Positions 11,557-21,969 of a stretch of DNA of 64,000 nucleotides are shown in pieces. The DNA is from Aureimonas sp. AU22. GTDB lineage: Bacteria > Pseudomonadota > Alphaproteobacteria > Rhizobiales > Rhizobiaceae. Both the position numbers and the translations under genes were made by a program. Where the stretch lies: contig NZ_BBWJ01000044.1 in the NCBI RefSeq assembly GCF_001463745.1, forward strand, positions 62,001-126,000, read 5' to 3'. Position 1 is the first letter of the stretch. Each line of letters starts with the position of its first letter. The notes below the pieces were generated by a model that did no database searches, had not been told where the DNA came from, and worked only from the letters and a program-made list of their open reading frames with translations.

Positions 11557-11889
11557 GCGTTTGGGGATGGTTTGCTGCAGTCGGGCGATGCGCGCGTCGT
11601 GAGGGCGGGATCTGTGGTCGGCCGGCGATCCGGAAGCGGTACGAGGAAACCGCTGGAAACCGGATGCCGGCCGACCGCCCCACGGGACCCAGGAGATGCG
11701 GCGGACCTGAGCATTCCATGGGGAAACTCGAAGGGAGCGGCTTGCCTGCGCCCTTTTTCCCACGCTCAGAGACTTGCCGAGAATCGTCCGGGAATCAATC
11801 CGGTGGACTGATTCCGTCCGTGATCTTTTCATGAATGGTTAACCTTGCGGCGCGCGGTCGGCTCCCAAGGGAACGACGTCAGGGTTCGG
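11557..11889. other. Intergenic stretch between convergent rpmG and divK
   Basis: I see no gene here on either strand. An inverted repeat GGAATCA-N11-TGATTCC lies near 11790-11815; both arms contain a GANTC site, the target of the CcrM methylase in alphaproteobacteria. A TTAACC at about 11839 resembles half of a CtrA site, but the second half is absent. In Caulobacter divK is followed by pleD; no trace of pleD is found in this space. Confidence 0.5.
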
Positions 11890-13410: not shown

Positions 13411-16400
13411 TCAGACCAGCTCCACATCGACCACGCCGGGCGCCGCCTTGATGGCGCTCGCGATCTGCGGCGAGACGCGGAATCGGCCGGGAAGATCGAT
13501 CTCCACCTCGCGTTCCCCGTCGTTACGGACAAGGATCAGAGACACTTCGCTGTCGCCACCGGGCCGAAGCTGGCTGCGGACATGCGACAGCGGGCCCGCA
13601 TCGCGGAGGAAGACGCGCAGCGCCTTCTGCATCTTTTCCGCCTCCCCCTCCAGCGACTGCACCGCCGAGGCGCGCAGCGAGATGCCCTCCGGCCGATCCT
13701 CGGCCGAGACGGTCACGATGACCGAAGCGCCGGGCTCCAGCATGTCGCGGAAGTGGATCAGCGTCTCGGTGAAGAGGACGACCTCGTACTGACCCGTCGC
13801 GTCCGAAAGCTGGACGATGCCGATCTTGCCGCCGGACTTGGTCTTGCGCTCTTGGCGCGAGGTCACCGTGCCGGCAAGCCGCCCCGCGGTCTGGCCGCGT
13901 CGGACCCCGGCGACGACCTCGGCGTAGGACTGGACCTTCAGTCGCTTCAGCGCCGCCTTGTACTCGTCCAGTGGGTGCGCCGAGAGATAGAAGCCGATCG
14001 CCTGGAACTCCTTCAGGAGCCGTTCGGCGCTCGTCCAGCCCTGGACCTCGGCAAGGCGCAGCGGTTCGGGCCCGGCATTGGCACCGCCGAACATGTCGTG
14101 CTGTCCCGATGTGCGACCGGTTTGCGCCAGCGCGGCATAAGCCGCCAGGCGTTCGAGGTTGCCGCACAGGCGCGCCCGGTCGTGACCGAAGCAGTCGAGC
14201 GCACCGGCGCAGATCAGGTGCTCCAACGTGCGCTTGTTGACGATCTTCGGATCGATCCGGGCGAAGAAGTCCTCGAGGCTCGCGAACCGCCCGCCTTCGG
14301 TGCGGCGCTCCACGATATGCTCGACCGCTTGCTCGCCGACGCCCTTGATGGCGGCCATGGCGTAGATGATCTTGCCGTCCTCGACCTCGAAGGCGCGGAA
14401 CGACGTCTGCACCGACGGCGGCACCACCTCGATGCCGAGGCGCTTGGCGTCGAGGCGGAAGTCGTTGAGCTTGTCCGTGTTGCCCATGTCGAGCGTCATC
14501 GACCCGGCCAGGAACTCCACCGGGTGGTTCGCCTTGAGATAGGCCGTCTGATACGAGACCAGCGCATAGGCGGCGGCGTGGCTCTTGTTGAAGCCGTAGT
14601 CGGCGAACTTGGCCAGGAGATCGAAGATCGTGTTGGCCTGCGCCTTCTTGATGCCGCCCTTCTCGCAGCCCTCGACGAAGCGCACGCGCTGGACGTCCAT
14701 CTCGGCGCGGATCTTCTTGCCCATCGCGCGGCGCAGAAGGTCGGCTTCGCCCAGCGTATAGCCCGACAGGACCTGGGCGATCTGCATTACCTGTTCCTGG
14801 TAGACGATGACGCCTTGCGTCTCGCGCAGGATGGGCTCGATCTTCTCGTGGATGATCTCGACCTGTTCCTCGCCGTGCTTGCGCGCGTTGTAGACGGGTA
14901 TGTTCTCCATCGGGCCGGGACGATAGAGCGCGACGAGGGCGATGATGTCCTCGAAGCAGTCGGGCCGCATGCCGATCAGCGCCTTGCGCATGCCGATCGA
15001 TTCCACCTGGAAGACGCCGACCGTCTCGCCGCGGGTAAGGAGCTGATAGGTCGGTTCGTCGTCGAGCGGCAGGGCACCGAGGTCGATCTCGATGCCCCGC
15101 CGGGCGATCAGGTCGAGGGCGGTCTTCAGCGTCGTCAGCGTCTTGAGGCCGAGAAAGTCGAACTTGACCAGCCCCGCCTGCTCGACCCACTTCATGTTGA
15201 ACTGGGTGACGGGCATATCCGAGCGCGGATCCCGGTACATCGGAACCAGCTTCGACAGCGGCCGGTCGCCGATGACGATGCCGGCGGCATGGGTCGAGGC
15301 GTGGCGATAAAGGCCCTCGAGCTTCAGCGAGATCGTCAGGAGGCGGTCGACGACGTCCTCGGCCTTGCGGGCTTCCTGCAGCCGCGGCTCGTCCTCGAGC
15401 GCCTGCGCGAGCGTCACGGGGTTCGCTGGGTTCTGCGGCACCAGCTTGCAGAGCTTGTCGACATGGCCGTAGCTCATCTCGAGAACGCGGCCGACGTCGC
15501 GCAGCACGGCGCGCGCCTGCATCGAACCGAAGGTGATGATCTGCGCGACCTGCTCGCGGCCGTACTTCTCTTGGACGTAGCGGATCACCTCCTCGCGACG
15601 GTCCTGGCAGAAGTCGATGTCGAAGTCGGGCATCGACACGCGGTCCGGGTTGAGGAAGCGCTCGAAGAGCAGCGCGAACCGCAGGGGGTCGAGGTCGGTG
15701 ATGGTGAGCGAGTAGGCGACGAGCGAACCCGCGCCAGAGCCGCGCCCCGGCCCCACGGGGATCCCGTTGGCTTTCGCCCACTTGATGAAGTCCGACACGA
15801 TCAGAAAGTAGCCGGGGAACTTCATGCGCTCGATGACGGAGAGCTCGAACTCCAGCCGCTCGCGGTAGATCTCGACCGTCTGACCCGGCGCGGGACCATG
15901 TGCCGCAAGGCGTGCCTCCAGCCCCTCTTCCGCCTGCCGGCGCAACTCGCCGGCCTCGGCCCGCTCCGCCTCCAGCGCGTCGGCATCGGCGCCGGCGAAG
16001 CGCGGCAGGATCGGCTTGCGGGTGCGCACGCGATAGGAGCAGCGCCGCGCGATCTCGATCGTGTTCTCCAGGGCCTCCGGCAGATCGGCGAAGAGCTCCG
16101 CCATCTTGTTCTGGCTCTTGAGGCAATGGTCGCTGGTGAGGCGGCGCCGGTCCTCGTGGCTGACGAGGCGGTTGGATGCGACGGCGATCAACGCGTCGTG
16201 CGCATCGAAATCCTCGTCGCAGAAGAAGAAGGGCTCGTTGGTCGCAACGAGCGGCAGGCCGAGTTCGTAGGCCAGCGCGACGGTATCCGGCTCGGTACGA
16301 CGCTCGCGACCGCCATGTCGCTGAAGTTCGACATAGAGCCGGTCGCCGTAGAGCGCCGCCAGCGTCTGGAGCCGGGCGCGCGCAAGGCCCGCCTGCCCGG

Positions 16401-17010
16401 CTGCGATGGCCGTCCCGATGGGGCCGAGCGGACCGCCGGAGAGGACGATGAGACCGTCGGTGCGCCCTTCCAGCCACGCCACGGGCACATGCGGGCGCAC
16501 ATTGCCGTCATGGGCGAGATAGGAGAGGGAAACGATCTCGACGAGGTTCTCGTAGCCGCGTTCGTTCGCTGCGATGAAGGCCATCGGTGCGGCCGGACCG
16601 AAGCCGGATCGATCGCGCGGATTGACCTCGGCATCCGCGAAATCGACCTCGAGCTGGCAGCCGATGATCGGCTGGATACCGGCCTTAGCCGCCTTCTCCG
16701 AGAATTCCAGGGCGCCGAAGAGATTGTTCGTGTCGGCGATTCCGATGGCCGGAGCGCCGTCGCCCTTTGCAAATTTCACAATCTGGTCCGTGCGCAGTGC
16801 CCCTTCCAAAAGGGAGAAGGCGCTGTGCACGCGCAGATGGATGAAACGCGGCGGGGCAATCGGCTCGACGGACTCGGACACGGCGATCTCCTCGATCGTC
16901 GGCGCGTCGTCCTCGGACAGCTCGCCGACTGGCCGGAGATAGCCGATGTCGTCGTAGAACGACTCAAGGCTGATCTCGGCATCAGAAGATTCGTCAGTGT
17001 TCCAATCCAC
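13411..17010 (-). CDS. dnaE: DNA polymerase III alpha subunit (replicative, DnaE1 type)
   Basis: A 1199-residue C-family polymerase. The PHP domain begins FIHLRVHSAFSLLEGAL near residue 56. The palm carries GRGSGAGSLVAYSL and the catalytic acid motif PDFDIDF at about residues 460-466. The clamp-binding motif QHDMF lies near residue 970, and an OB domain and C-terminal tail follow. The length and internal clamp motif argue for DnaE1, not the error-prone DnaE2/ImuC. The annotated start is a GTG without a clear Shine-Dalgarno sequence, giving an unusual acidic N-terminal extension of about 55 residues. A GTG at 16881 with GAGGAG 6 bases upstream is an alternative start closer to the family norm. 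A short ORF with LexA-type boxes lies directly upstream. Confidence 0.95.
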   Translation of the reverse strand: MDWNTDESSDAEISLESFYDDIGYLRPVGELSEDDAPTIEEIAVSESVEPIAPPRFIHLRVHSAFSLLEGALRTDQIVKFAKGDGAPAIGIADTNNLFGALEFSEKAAKAGIQPIIGCQLEVDFADAEVNPRDRSGFGPAAPMAFIAANERGYENLVEIVSLSYLAHDGNVRPHVPVAWLEGRTDGLIVLSGGPLGPIGTAIAAGQAGLARARLQTLAALYGDRLYVELQRHGGRERRTEPDTVALAYELGLPLVATNEPFFFCDEDFDAHDALIAVASNRLVSHEDRRRLTSDHCLKSQNKMAELFADLPEALENTIEIARRCSYRVRTRKPILPRFAGADADALEAERAEAGELRRQAEEGLEARLAAHGPAPGQTVEIYRERLEFELSVIERMKFPGYFLIVSDFIKWAKANGIPVGPGRGSGAGSLVAYSLTITDLDPLRFALLFERFLNPDRVSMPDFDIDFCQDRREEVIRYVQEKYGREQVAQIITFGSMQARAVLRDVGRVLEMSYGHVDKLCKLVPQNPANPVTLAQALEDEPRLQEARKAEDVVDRLLTISLKLEGLYRHASTHAAGIVIGDRPLSKLVPMYRDPRSDMPVTQFNMKWVEQAGLVKFDFLGLKTLTTLKTALDLIARRGIEIDLGALPLDDEPTYQLLTRGETVGVFQVESIGMRKALIGMRPDCFEDIIALVALYRPGPMENIPVYNARKHGEEQVEIIHEKIEPILRETQGVIVYQEQVMQIAQVLSGYTLGEADLLRRAMGKKIRAEMDVQRVRFVEGCEKGGIKKAQANTIFDLLAKFADYGFNKSHAAAYALVSYQTAYLKANHPVEFLAGSMTLDMGNTDKLNDFRLDAKRLGIEVVPPSVQTSFRAFEVEDGKIIYAMAAIKGVGEQAVEHIVERRTEGGRFASLEDFFARIDPKIVNKRTLEHLICAGALDCFGHDRARLCGNLERLAAYAALAQTGRTSGQHDMFGGANAGPEPLRLAEVQGWTSAERLLKEFQAIGFYLSAHPLDEYKAALKRLKVQSYAEVVAGVRRGQTAGRLAGTVTSRQERKTKSGGKIGIVQLSDATGQYEVVLFTETLIHFRDMLEPGASVIVTVSAEDRPEGISLRASAVQSLEGEAEKMQKALRVFLRDAGPLSHVRSQLRPGGDSEVSLILVRNDGEREVEIDLPGRFRVSPQIASAIKAAPGVVDVELV

Positions 17011-17074: not shown

Positions 17075-17158
17075 TCAGAGAATGTGGACGATCAGCGCGA
17101 AGCTCATGAAGAAGAGCGAAAGCGCGGTCAGCGAAGCGAGTTCCTTCAGGATCAGCAT
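17075..17158 (-). CDS. 27-residue single-span membrane protein, candidate SOS-induced
   Basis: A short ORF below the usual calling limit. It starts with ATG preceded by AAAGGGGAA at good spacing and ends in TGA. The product begins MLILKELASLTALSLFFMSF and ends ALIVHIL. After a short K/E-bearing N-terminus, nearly the whole chain is one hydrophobic helix. Immediately upstream are four GAAC blocks arranged as two GAAC-N7-GAAC boxes, the alphaproteobacterial LexA operator. In Caulobacter the SOS-induced division inhibitor SidA is a 29-residue single-span protein. The resemblance in size, topology and regulation is suggestive, but I cannot show sequence homology. It lies 64 bases upstream of dnaE on the same strand. 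Confidence 0.6.
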   Translation of the reverse strand: MLILKELASLTALSLFFMSFALIVHIL

Positions 17159-17161
17159 GTC

Positions 17162-17195
17162 GTTCCCCTTTCGTTCTGGTGTTCCTTTTTTGTTC
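17162..17195 (-). promoter_or_regulatory. Two tandem LexA-type operators
   Basis: On the minus strand the region reads GAAC-N7-GAAC-N4-GAAC-N7-GAAC; in plus coordinates the GTTC blocks are at 17162, 17173, 17181 and 17192. GTTC-N7-GTTC direct repeats are the established LexA site in alphaproteobacteria, and the distal copy has the typical T-rich spacer. The proximal box overlaps the Shine-Dalgarno sequence of the 27-codon ORF, so binding would block transcription of that ORF and probably of dnaE. Confidence 0.7.
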
Positions 17196-17789
17196 CATTT
17201 CGTTGTGGGGCGCAAGGGGCAGAGATCGGGATGGTGAAAGATTTCCTAAAATCGAACGGGACGCGCCGAAGCGCCCGCACCGCTTCGCGGCCGGGTCGAT
17301 AGGGAGGCGGATGCCGCCTCGCCTCGGTTCGGAGATGGGCGACGGGACGCCGGAGGCGAACCTCCGTTGGTTGTTGTTGGTGTGGTCCGCCTCCAGCGTC
17401 CCGCGCGGTGTTGTCCAGTTCCGGACCGGCGTGCGAAGCCGGCCCATGCGCCTTCGATGGGGGTTACGGAGGGCGCCTCGGCCCGATCGGTCCAACCGCT
17501 CTCACCGGTGGACGGGGGCTTTCTCCAGCGCCGAGTTTTCCAAGGAGCCACCTCGTTTTGGGCAGCCAACCCCCTATGCCAGGAACCGTCCGGGCCACGC
17601 TTCCTCCGGCAGGAAACGCATCGCGGACACCGCTCGCCAGCCCCTCCGAACGATCCCGGTGATCATTCGCGCCCATCCAGAATGGGCCGGCGATGGAGGA
17701 AGGTTAGTGTACGCCCCGCGGTATGGGGACATTCGGCTGAAAGATCGGCTGCGGATCTTGGAGCAAGGCACGCGCACGGCCGAGGGGCG
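17196..17789. other. Intergenic stretch upstream of the dnaE unit
   Basis: About 590 bases without a convincing gene. Open frames exist on both strands but have no start signals, family motifs or conserved composition. A small perfect hairpin (GAGGCGG-ATG-CCGCCTC) lies at 17304-17320 without a T run. The minus-strand promoter that feeds the SOS-boxed ORF must lie in its 17196-17260 part, but no clear -35/-10 pair is visible. Confidence 0.4.
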
Positions 17790-18182
17790 TCAGCCGTCGA
17801 GTTGCGCCTCGATCGCCGGCTTGTCGACGACGGACCAGACGGTCGCGATCCTTCCGTCGCGAAACTCGTAGATGACGTTCTCGGCGAAGCCGACAGTGCG
17901 GCCGTCGATCCGCAGACCGAGGAACTCACTCTTCGGCGAACAGCGAAATCAGAGACGGGCGGCGATGCGCGGCGGCTCGCAAACGAGGAGGTCGATTTGA
18001 AAGCCGAGGTCGGGGATGGCGGCGAAGTCATCCTCGAGCATCCGGCGGTAACCCGACAGGCCGAACGCACGCCCGTTGTGCTCGACGTTTTCGGCGACGT
18101 ATCGCCCGAGGTTCGCCCAGTCCTGCCGGTTGAGGCACGCGATGCAGGCACGGTAGACGTCGGGCAGCGACATCTCGGACAA
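17790..18182 (-). pseudogene. SnoaL-like ester cyclase interrupted by an in-frame TGA
   Basis: Read through one stop, this frame encodes a 130-residue SnoaL/ester-cyclase-type protein, a cone-shaped alpha+beta barrel family with diverse small-molecule substrates. The first part is MSLPDVYRACIACLNRQDW to EPPRIAARL. A TGA at 17949-17951 follows, and the same frame then continues FRCSPKSEFLGLRIDGR, TVGFAENVIYEFRDGRIATV and WSVVDKPAIEAQLDG. A CGA-to-TGA change would explain the stop, because Arg fits the position. The best start is a TTG at 18182 with GGAAAGG 8 bases upstream. It lies downstream of lolD on the same strand. Recent inactivation is likely, since the remainder is intact. Confidence 0.75.
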
Positions 18183-18262
18183 TGGTGTGACCTTTCCTCG
18201 CCGATGACAGCTCACTTCACGCCGAGACGTCGGTCCATGCCCATCCCCCGCGTCATGCCGCC

Positions 18263-18955
18263 CTACCCCAGGACGTGATCCACGATCTTTCCGCCCTTCA
18301 GCGTCACCGCGCGATCCATGCGCCTGGCGAGGTCGTGGTTGTGGGTGGCGATGAGGGCAGCGACGCCGGACTGGCGGACGAGCGCCGTCATCGCCTCGAA
18401 GACGTAGGACGAGGTCGTCGGGTCGAGATTACCGGTGGGTTCGTCGGCCAGCAGCACATAGGGGTTGTTGGCGACCGCGCGGGCGATGGCGACGCGCTGT
18501 TGCTCGCCGCCGGAGAGCTCCGCCGGACGATGCGAGACGCGCTGGCCGAGCCGCATGTACTCGAGCAGCATCTTCGCCCGGTCGGCGGCCACCTTGTGCG
18601 ACAAGCCGCGGATCATCTGCGGCAGCATCACGTTCTCCAGCGCCGAGAACTCCGGCAGGAGATGGTGGAACTGGTAGACGAAGCCGATCGAGGAACGGCG
18701 CATATCGGTGCGACCGGCGTCGTCGAGGCCCGCGCAGGACGTGCCGTTGACGAAGACGTCGCCGCCGTCCGGTTTCTCCAGGAGCCCGGCGATGTGAAGG
18801 AGCGTCGACTTGCCGGCGCCGGACGGCGCGACGAGCGCGACCATCTCGCCGGCGGCGATCTCCATGTCGGCGTGGTCGAGAATCGTGAGGCGGGATTCGC
18901 CCTGCAGGTAGTGGCGCTCGACTTGCGCGAGGCGAAGGGAGGACGTGATGCTCAT
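18263..18955 (-). CDS. lolD: Lipoprotein-releasing ABC transporter ATPase LolD
   Basis: A 230-residue ABC ATPase that powers release of outer-membrane lipoproteins from the inner membrane to LolA. Walker A is APSGAGKST, the signature is [12 protein letters not shown], Walker B is [12 protein letters not shown] and the switch His lies in [29 protein letters not shown] is the typical LolD/MacB Q-loop segment. The start overlaps the lolC/E stop by four bases, and the pair follows proS, a recurrent alphaproteobacterial order. Confidence 0.95.
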
Positions 18956-20265
18956 TCGTAGCGCAGCGCCTCGACCGGATCGAGCTTAGAGGCCTGCCAG
19001 GACGGAAGGATCGTGGCGAGGAACGACAGGCCGATGGCCATGGCGACCACGGTCGCGACCTCGCTCGGGTCGATCTCGGCCGGCAGCCGGGAGAGGAAGT
19101 AGAATTCCGGATTGAACAGCGTGGTGCCGGACACCCACGAGAAGAACTGCCGGAGGTTCTCGATGTTGAGGCAGAACAGCGTGCCCAACACGAAGCCTGC
19201 CAGCGTTCCCGCGATGCCGATCGAGGCGCCTGTGATCAGGAAGACGCGCATGATCGAGCCACGCGTCGCGCCCATCGTGCGCATGATCGCGATGTCGCGG
19301 CCCTTGTCCTTCACCAGCATGAAGAGACCGGAGATGATGTTGAGCGCGGCAACGAGCACGATCAGCGTGAGGATGATGAACATGACGTTCCGCTCGACCT
19401 CGAGCGCCGAGAAGAAGCTCTCGTTCATGCGCTGCCAGGTGACCGTGTAGTTCGGGCGTCCGGCGGCCTGCTCGATCGGCCCCTGGAGCGAGACGACCTG
19501 ATCGGGGTTGTCGAGAAAGATCTCGATCGACTGCGCCTTGTCCTCCGAGTTGAAGAAGAGCTGCGCTTCCGTCAGCGGCATGTAGACATAGGACGCGTCG
19601 TATTCGGACAGGCCGATCTCGAAGATGGCGACCACGGGATAGGCCTTGACGCGCGGTGTCACCCCGAGCGGCGTGACGTCGCCTTCGGGCGAGACGAGGG
19701 TGATGGAATCGCCGAGCCCCAGCCCAAGCGACTGGGCCAGCCGAGACCCGATGGCGACGCCCTGGCTCGTGTCGAAATGCTCGATCGAGCCGAGCTGGAT
19801 GTTGCTGGAAACCGGCGTCAGCTTCTGCAGGTCGGCTCCGCGCACGCCCTTCACCAGCGCGCCGGTGGAGGTCGAGCCGGCGCCCGTGGCCAGCACCTGC
19901 CCCTGAACCAGCGGCATCGTGTAGGCGACGCCGGCGACACCCGCGACGCGTTTGGCGACCTCGTCGTAGTCGGTCAGCGGCGTGTCGATCGGCTGCATGA
20001 TCACATGGCCGTTGACGCCGAGGATCCGCGTGAGAAGTTCGCCGCGAAAGCCGTTCATCACCGACATGACGATGATCAGGGCGGCGACGCCCAGCATGAT
20101 GCCGATGAAGGAGAACCCGGCGATTACCGAGACGCCCGCATCACGGCGGCGCGAACGCAGGTAGCGGCCGGCGATCATCCACTCGAAGCGCGAGAACGGA
20201 CGGGTTCCGCCCACTGCCGCATCCGCGCCGTGGACCGCAGCTTCCAGGGTCTCGGCCTTCGTCAC
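18952..20265 (-). CDS. lolC: Lipoprotein-releasing ABC transporter permease LolC/LolE
   Basis: A 437-residue FtsX-like permease. It starts [21 protein letters not shown] followed by the first membrane span ([31 protein letters not shown]), has a large periplasmic domain, and ends with three spans including [23 protein letters not shown] and [16 protein letters not shown]. Alphaproteobacteria generally encode a single LolC/E-type permease instead of separate LolC and LolE, so it probably works as a homodimer (often called LolF). The GTG start overlaps the proS stop. Confidence 0.93.
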
Positions 20266-21815: not shown

Positions 21816-21969
21816 GCTAAGACAAGCGCCCCAACGGCGTGAACCGCTTGGTCCAGTCATGGGAGGACGTGGTTTTCGGCGCGCTCATCGCGCAGCCCCG
21901 GTCTAGAAATCGGAGCAAAACCCGGACCAGGTAACTAAAAATGCGAAGCGCGAGCTTCGCATTTTTTTT
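21816..21969 (+). ncRNA. Candidate small RNA between proS and the DUF1467 gene
   Basis: No protein gene fits this stretch. It lies between a possible promoter and a terminator with eight T residues on the plus strand, although both flanking genes are on the minus strand. CTTGGTCC near 21847 can pair with GGACCAGG near 21925, which would enclose a smaller hairpin (GCGCG-CTCAT-CGCGC). I do not recognise it as 6S RNA, tmRNA or SRP RNA. The call is based only on signal order and is tentative. Confidence 0.3.
21941..21969. terminator. Strong, probably bidirectional intrinsic terminator
   Basis: ATGCGAAGC and GCTTCGCAT form a perfect 9-bp stem around a GCGA loop. It is followed by eight T on the plus strand and by a T-run of about five (TTTTTAGTT) on the minus strand. 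On the minus strand it sits 16 bases after the DUF1467 stop and would end the birA-rnj-DUF1467 transcript. Confidence 0.85.

Follow-up and report, generated by a model that had tools for sequence, protein, structure and literature searches.

The window, that is, the whole stretch of 64,000 nucleotides analysed here, carries a very short candidate gene directly upstream of dnaE. The features of this locus are the following:

17158..17075, minus strand: sidA-like gene of 27 codons plus TGA, with an ATG start at 17158, MLILKELASLTALSLFFMSFALIVHIL
17195..17181, minus strand: LexA-type box 1, GAACAAAAAAGGAAC, GAAC-N7-GAAC, overlapping the putative -10 region
17176..17162, minus strand: LexA-type box 2, GAACGAAAGGGGAAC, GAAC-N7-GAAC, overlapping the ribosome-binding site
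17165..17171, minus strand: Shine-Dalgarno-like AAAGGGG, inside box 2 and 6 nt before the ATG
17210..17215, minus strand: -35-like TTGCGC, 20 nt 5' of box 1
13411..17010, minus strand: dnaE, DNA polymerase III alpha subunit, the conserved downstream neighbour (first possible start GTG at 17010)
18263..18955, minus strand: ABC ATPase (PF00005), the upstream neighbour, presumably lolD-like
18952..20265, minus strand: permease with FtsX and MacB_PCD domains, which we take to be lolC/E-like

Read 5' to 3' on the minus strand, the order is box 1, ACCA, box 2, GAC and the ATG at 17158, and 64 nt separate the end of the ORF from the first possible start of dnaE, whose product has PHP, DNA_pol3_alpha, finger, HHH and OB domains. 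The earlier note had described two GAAC-N7-GAAC boxes ahead of a 27-codon one-helix ORF, with the second box over the ribosome-binding site, and both points are borne out at the coordinates listed above. The ORF product is a predicted single hydrophobic helix (best 17-residue Kyte-Doolittle mean 2.16) in the length class of the ~29-aa SidA. Pfam and NCBIfam scans of five representative ORFs gave no meaningful match (the one Pfam match, at E 0.048, was below threshold), PHROGs had no match for the window ORF or a phage-borne copy, and no Rfam family match overlaps the sidA-like locus.

The surroundings hold some other elements. No convincing gene was seen in the ~1 kb between the sidA-like and lolD-like genes (17216-18262). 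The EcpR1 (Atu_C6) sRNA family is matched on the minus strand at 11611-11725, ~5 kb from the sidA-dnaE boundary, and the alphaproteobacterial sRNA ar9 of Rfam on the plus strand at 21817-21968 (62.8 bits). EcpR1 is a cell-cycle regulating sRNA in Sinorhizobium.

In the window as a whole, the exact box pattern occurs 3 times against 2.0 +/- 1.5 in shuffles, and one box alone is weak evidence. In the entire 4.63 Mb genome, it occurs 167 times, compared with 55 for a mirrored control pattern; among 264 dnaE-upstream regions, the box alone is present at 123 loci, whereas shuffles average 2.95. When a perfect box and a hydrophobic ORF are sought together, the opposite strand yields none in 264 loci, and 20 dinucleotide shuffles per locus yield none either. 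It is because box and ORF are conserved across relatives that the locus lies beyond chance.

The layout of the promoter was also compared. TTG[AC] stands 16-25 nt before the box at all 19 boxed loci of the genus, and TTGA[CT] occurs in the stretch from 30 nt before the box to the first box bases at 77 of 116 loci, compared with 21 of 464 background windows. The box would fall on the -10 region, as one expects for a LexA operator. Two boxes in this orientation are found at 10 of the 19 boxed same-genus loci, so the second box is not general in the genus; where it lies over the ribosome-binding site, as it does in part of the genus only, it may give tighter repression. The window's genome carries recA and lexA. 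In front of lexA, a perfect box, GAACACAAGCGGAAC, starts 57 nt ahead of the matched gene start; the sequence GAACAAAAAGGGTAC, which lies before recA, differs from the box at one position.

Conservation of the ORF in relatives had been named beforehand as a check, and the ORF is kept: among 21 genomes of the genus (counting the window's own), 20 carry a 27-codon homologue at the same spot, with the shared pattern [KR]E..hSL....F. A perfect box precedes the ORF at 19 of the 21 loci, and one further locus (L020) has the ORF without a perfect box. In the remaining same-genus genome, G004 (L017, ~721-1485), tandem repeats of ~96 bp replace the ORF; several of them carry the ORF tail FVPGFSLVIHA, and no intact copy of the ORF was found. 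The ratio pN/pS is 0.49 over 19 sequences and 0.23 over L001-L007, which supports protein-like substitution with constraint on nonsynonymous change.

To survey the class more widely, 264 dnaE-upstream regions were screened with one rule, namely an ATG-started hydrophobic ORF of 22-45 codons that begins no more than 110 nt after a perfect box. The rule matched 116 of the 264 loci, or 113 of 260 without four duplicate loci. Matches were found at 19 of 21 same-genus loci, 20 of 39 loci of family and order relatives, 11 of 75 in the class sample, 21 of 77 in the genome-contig scan (aimed with family f29; 80 loci of other orders) and 23 of 30 in Caulobacteraceae, whose genomes were mostly chosen by RsaA. 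In family f29, all 22 loci matched, and these are a biased subset (22 loci from 60 genomes, found with a query matching the antisense of dnaE and all covering dnaE). Named carriers include Bradyrhizobium sp. (MAG), Afipia, Ancylobacter, Methylopila, Rhodoplanes, Hansschlegelia and Amphiplicatus, and the rule gave no match in loci named Azospirillum or Rhodobacteraceae. The gene is found widely but is by no means universal, as more than half of the sampled loci have no match by the rule. Adding the matches of profiles built from the same loci gives 129 of 264, with none on the opposite strand at E < 0.01. These counts omit L138, L177, L185 and L225, which have too little upstream sequence, the DNA polymerase family matches L031-L033 in the genome of the window itself, and L034, which repeats the window's locus; one search, with an E-value limit of 1e-40, left out 67 of 144 genomes. 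All 264 loci were retrieved through DnaE, hence the need for a search free of position.

For this search, a protein profile of 20 sequences and 28 positions was run in six frames against 247 whole genomes of the family, using neither box nor dnaE information; the 247 include the window's genome, in which the match falls on the ORF described here, and several that supplied profile rows. At E <= 0.05, matches were obtained in 214 of the 247 genomes and 92 of the 106 genera. The best 30 matches, 7 of which come from genomes supplying profile rows, all lie 246-791 nt upstream of the conserved DnaE start, and 27 of them have a perfect box. Another 40 lower-ranked matches, two of them second matches, were picked by hand down the ranks among the matches listed. 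Within this sample, 37 have a perfect box no more than 200 nt upstream, and dnaE lies within ~1 kb downstream of 29 and is absent there in 11.

The 11 sampled matches without dnaE are informative, since 9 of them keep a perfect box, and gene and box kept together away from dnaE argue against a dnaE leader peptide. Eight of these nine boxed loci face a convergent gene. At seven, which come from one group of relatives (L316, L326, L336, L338, L340, L342 and L345), this neighbour is gamma-glutamyltranspeptidase-like, with PF01019 confirmed at the three checked (L316, L338 and L345). At another, a convergent gene of lipoyl ligase type (PF21948) is found, and one boxed locus is followed by a same-strand gene of no clear family. 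The remaining two of the 11 are phage-linked copies without a box.

Copies of this last kind encode the SidA-like peptide MRDLLHDIASFVAVSTFIATFAVWAGYLAEKV and variants of it, with no perfect LexA box nearby (L308, L309 and L348-L351, the last four being IMG/VR contigs). In L348, the peptide gene is located 5' of two others, one PDDEXK-like (DUF3799) and one recT, and the IMG/VR contig concerned (42,186) has the same size as contig C27 of genome G036. A short-peptide tblastn against phages and plasmids, which is insensitive at such length, gave no match. The phage copies are possibly a division inhibitor carried by phage.

The next question is how the ORF relates to SidA of Caulobacter, an inner-membrane protein of 29 aa that acts on FtsW (PMC4211646). 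Caulobacteraceae (family f78) were recognised by C. crescentus MreB at 94-95% identity, and 30 genomes were chosen from 322, mostly for an RsaA-like match. Genus g276 was taken as Caulobacter on N-terminal RsaA matches of 75-84% in seven genomes. No near-identical RsaA was found among the 322 genomes, so C. vibrioides itself is not among them. As a marker of the family, Rfam RF01867 was tried and set aside as too widespread (31 of 144 genomes).

In the genomes taken as Caulobacter, all 19 examined have a 29- or 30-codon ORF with a perfect box before dnaE. Counted from the ATG behind GGAGG, 16 of the 19 ORFs are 29 codons long; at most of these loci, a start at another in-frame ATG, 11 codons upstream of this one, would lengthen the ORF to 40 codons. 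The upstream gene was inspected at two Caulobacter loci, L252 and L259. It runs divergently at both and is similar in the two; that of L259 encodes an inosine-uridine nucleoside hydrolase (PF01156, E 3.2e-76), and the ORF lies between this gene and dnaE. In the published numbering, sidA is CCNA_02004 (PMC10769358), CCNA_02005 is an IU nucleoside hydrolase (PMC3667746) and dnaE of C. crescentus is CC1926, a number older than the CCNA tags (PMC1839093). Length, neighbour and box of the Caulobacter ORF fit sidA, with its position deduced from congeners and from locus tags of two numbering systems. The order lolC-lolD-ORF-dnaE was also seen by eye in another Caulobacteraceae locus (L246).

Sequence comparison links the two ends through intermediates. 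Profile-profile comparison gives 96% between the genus and its relatives and 92% between the relatives and f29 (0 of 100 column-permuted controls reaching the value in either case), and 75% between the relatives and Caulobacteraceae (1 of 100). Compared directly, genus and Caulobacteraceae give 2.7%, which is not significant, since 13 of 100 permuted profiles reach this score; the pairs genus-f29 (53 of 100) and Caulobacteraceae-f29 (41 of 100) are not significant either. A profile iterated with the window ORF as its sole seed, over an ORF set that includes the 40 lower-ranked profile loci, converges at an inclusion E of 0.001 on 72 ORFs, none of them from Caulobacteraceae. A single Caulobacteraceae locus is added at 0.005 and 0.01, 29 of 30 at 0.02, where the frames matched correspond to the ORFs discussed here, and all 30 at 0.05. 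None of 3278 reverse-strand decoy ORFs is drawn in at 0.005, 0.01, 0.02 or 0.05, and f29 is not reached by iteration from the window ORF. Homology to Caulobacter SidA is probable through these intermediates, and a direct comparison of 27 residues cannot prove it. The suggestion of the earlier note that the ORF is a SidA-like SOS division inhibitor gains support from the shared position upstream of dnaE, the [KR]-[ED] and hydrophobic pattern, the LexA boxes and the iterated-profile link.

We consider it probable, judging from the sequence, that the ORF is an orthologue of sidA, repressed by LexA and made after DNA damage, whose 27-aa inner-membrane helix would block septation by FtsW/FtsI/FtsN. 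The gene itself, its conservation, the constraint at the protein level, the LexA-type boxes and the synteny with sidA are supported in silico; LexA binding, damage induction, membrane insertion and the FtsW/I/N target are what we infer by analogy. In undamaged cells, LexA would sit on the box or boxes over the -10 region, and here also over the ribosome-binding site, keeping the gene off. Upon DNA damage, RecA-stimulated cleavage of LexA would free the promoter, and the 27-residue peptide would insert as a single helix in the inner membrane. There it would hold the septal synthase complex FtsW/FtsI/FtsN inactive, and septation would wait until repair is done. AlphaFold 3 models, which are not of high confidence, place SidA at TM7 of FtsW (PMC13396833).

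Three other explanations were weighed against the sidA orthologue. That a short hydrophobic ORF stands by accident behind two LexA-like motifs would agree with the lack of enrichment of the box pattern in the window as a whole, but the opposite strand and the shuffles are empty, the protein profile matches 214 of 247 genomes and pN/pS is 0.23-0.49; because of these conservation data, chance is refuted, and we give it next to no probability. The ORF might instead be another SOS-induced one-helix peptide that is no divisome inhibitor, for example a depolarising toxin such as TisB or DinQ. TisB is a small SOS-controlled one-helix toxic peptide. DinQ is another (PMC3567139), and 27 residues hold little diagnostic sequence. 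However, the position of sidA, the length class, the N-terminal [KR][ED] and the sequence bridge to the Caulobacteraceae ORFs speak for SidA, and no Rfam family match overlaps the locus, so that a toxin appears unlikely.

The ORF could also be a leader peptide or uORF whose translation tunes dnaE expression, with no protein acting alone. It lies only 64 nt before dnaE, and a translated small ORF is reported ahead of dnaE1 in Sinorhizobium meliloti. In that species, Ribo-seq and proteomics revealed 48 translated sORFs that two annotations lack, 37 of which came from Ribo-seq; sORF25, from the Ribo-seq set, maps to the 5'-UTR of dnaE1, and for some sORFs of this type the authors propose a role as uORFs (PMC10117765). 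Seven of the novel S. meliloti proteins have a predicted membrane location (PMC10117765). Judging from the published description, sORF25 is probably the same gene as the window ORF. Against a leader stand the conserved amino-acid sequence, the hydrophobic helix, which a leader does not need, and the 11 of 40 sampled among the matches listed that have no dnaE within ~1 kb, 9 of which are boxed. We regard a leader as quite unlikely.

With the sidA orthologue as the preferred explanation, the broader picture can be considered. On balance, we favour the view that SidA is no peculiarity of Caulobacter and represents an old, widespread SOS checkpoint of Alphaproteobacteria, hidden by its size of ~27-35 codons and usually beside dnaE, and that some phage copies in Rhizobiales without a LexA box could halt host division on their own schedule. 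Since sidA usually lies beside dnaE, damage may couple division arrest to the supply of the replicative polymerase. What is new here is the breadth, of which the texts retrieved in our literature search gave no report, though it may have been noticed earlier. This search, which did not include the original SidA paper (Modell 2011), retrieved texts that name no alphaproteobacterial SOS division inhibitor outside Caulobacter.

If the gene is a rhizobial SOS division inhibitor, the question can be put to a direct test by a 27-codon deletion in rhizobia commonly used in the laboratory. It also provides a hypothesis for the translated and unexplained sORF25 of S. meliloti, and its homologues would form a natural set of short helices with which the inactivation of FtsW/I/N by a minimal peptide could be mapped.

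Several known systems can be compared with the window ORF. YneA, DivS, ChiZ and SosA are likewise SOS-induced division inhibitors, but all are from Gram-positive or mycobacterial species; yneA, divS and chiZ have been called unrelated genes (PMC4211646), and YneA interacts with FtsW (PMC13396833). DidA of Caulobacter is also a division inhibitor acting on the FtsW/I/N complex, whereas it is SOS-independent, needs DriD and interacts with FtsN (PMC4211646). Closer is sORF25, a small translated ORF in front of dnaE1, although its published description presents it as a possible uORF and not as SidA (PMC10117765). SidA itself differs from the window ORF by low direct sequence identity and by the sequence of the box and its spacing to the start. 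The two are nevertheless alike in size (29 aa versus 27 aa), in the predicted single hydrophobic helix, in the predicted control by LexA and in the place directly upstream of dnaE, which for C. crescentus is deduced from congeners and papers, and the window and Caulobacteraceae ORFs share the N-terminal [KR][ED] and the hydrophobic pattern.
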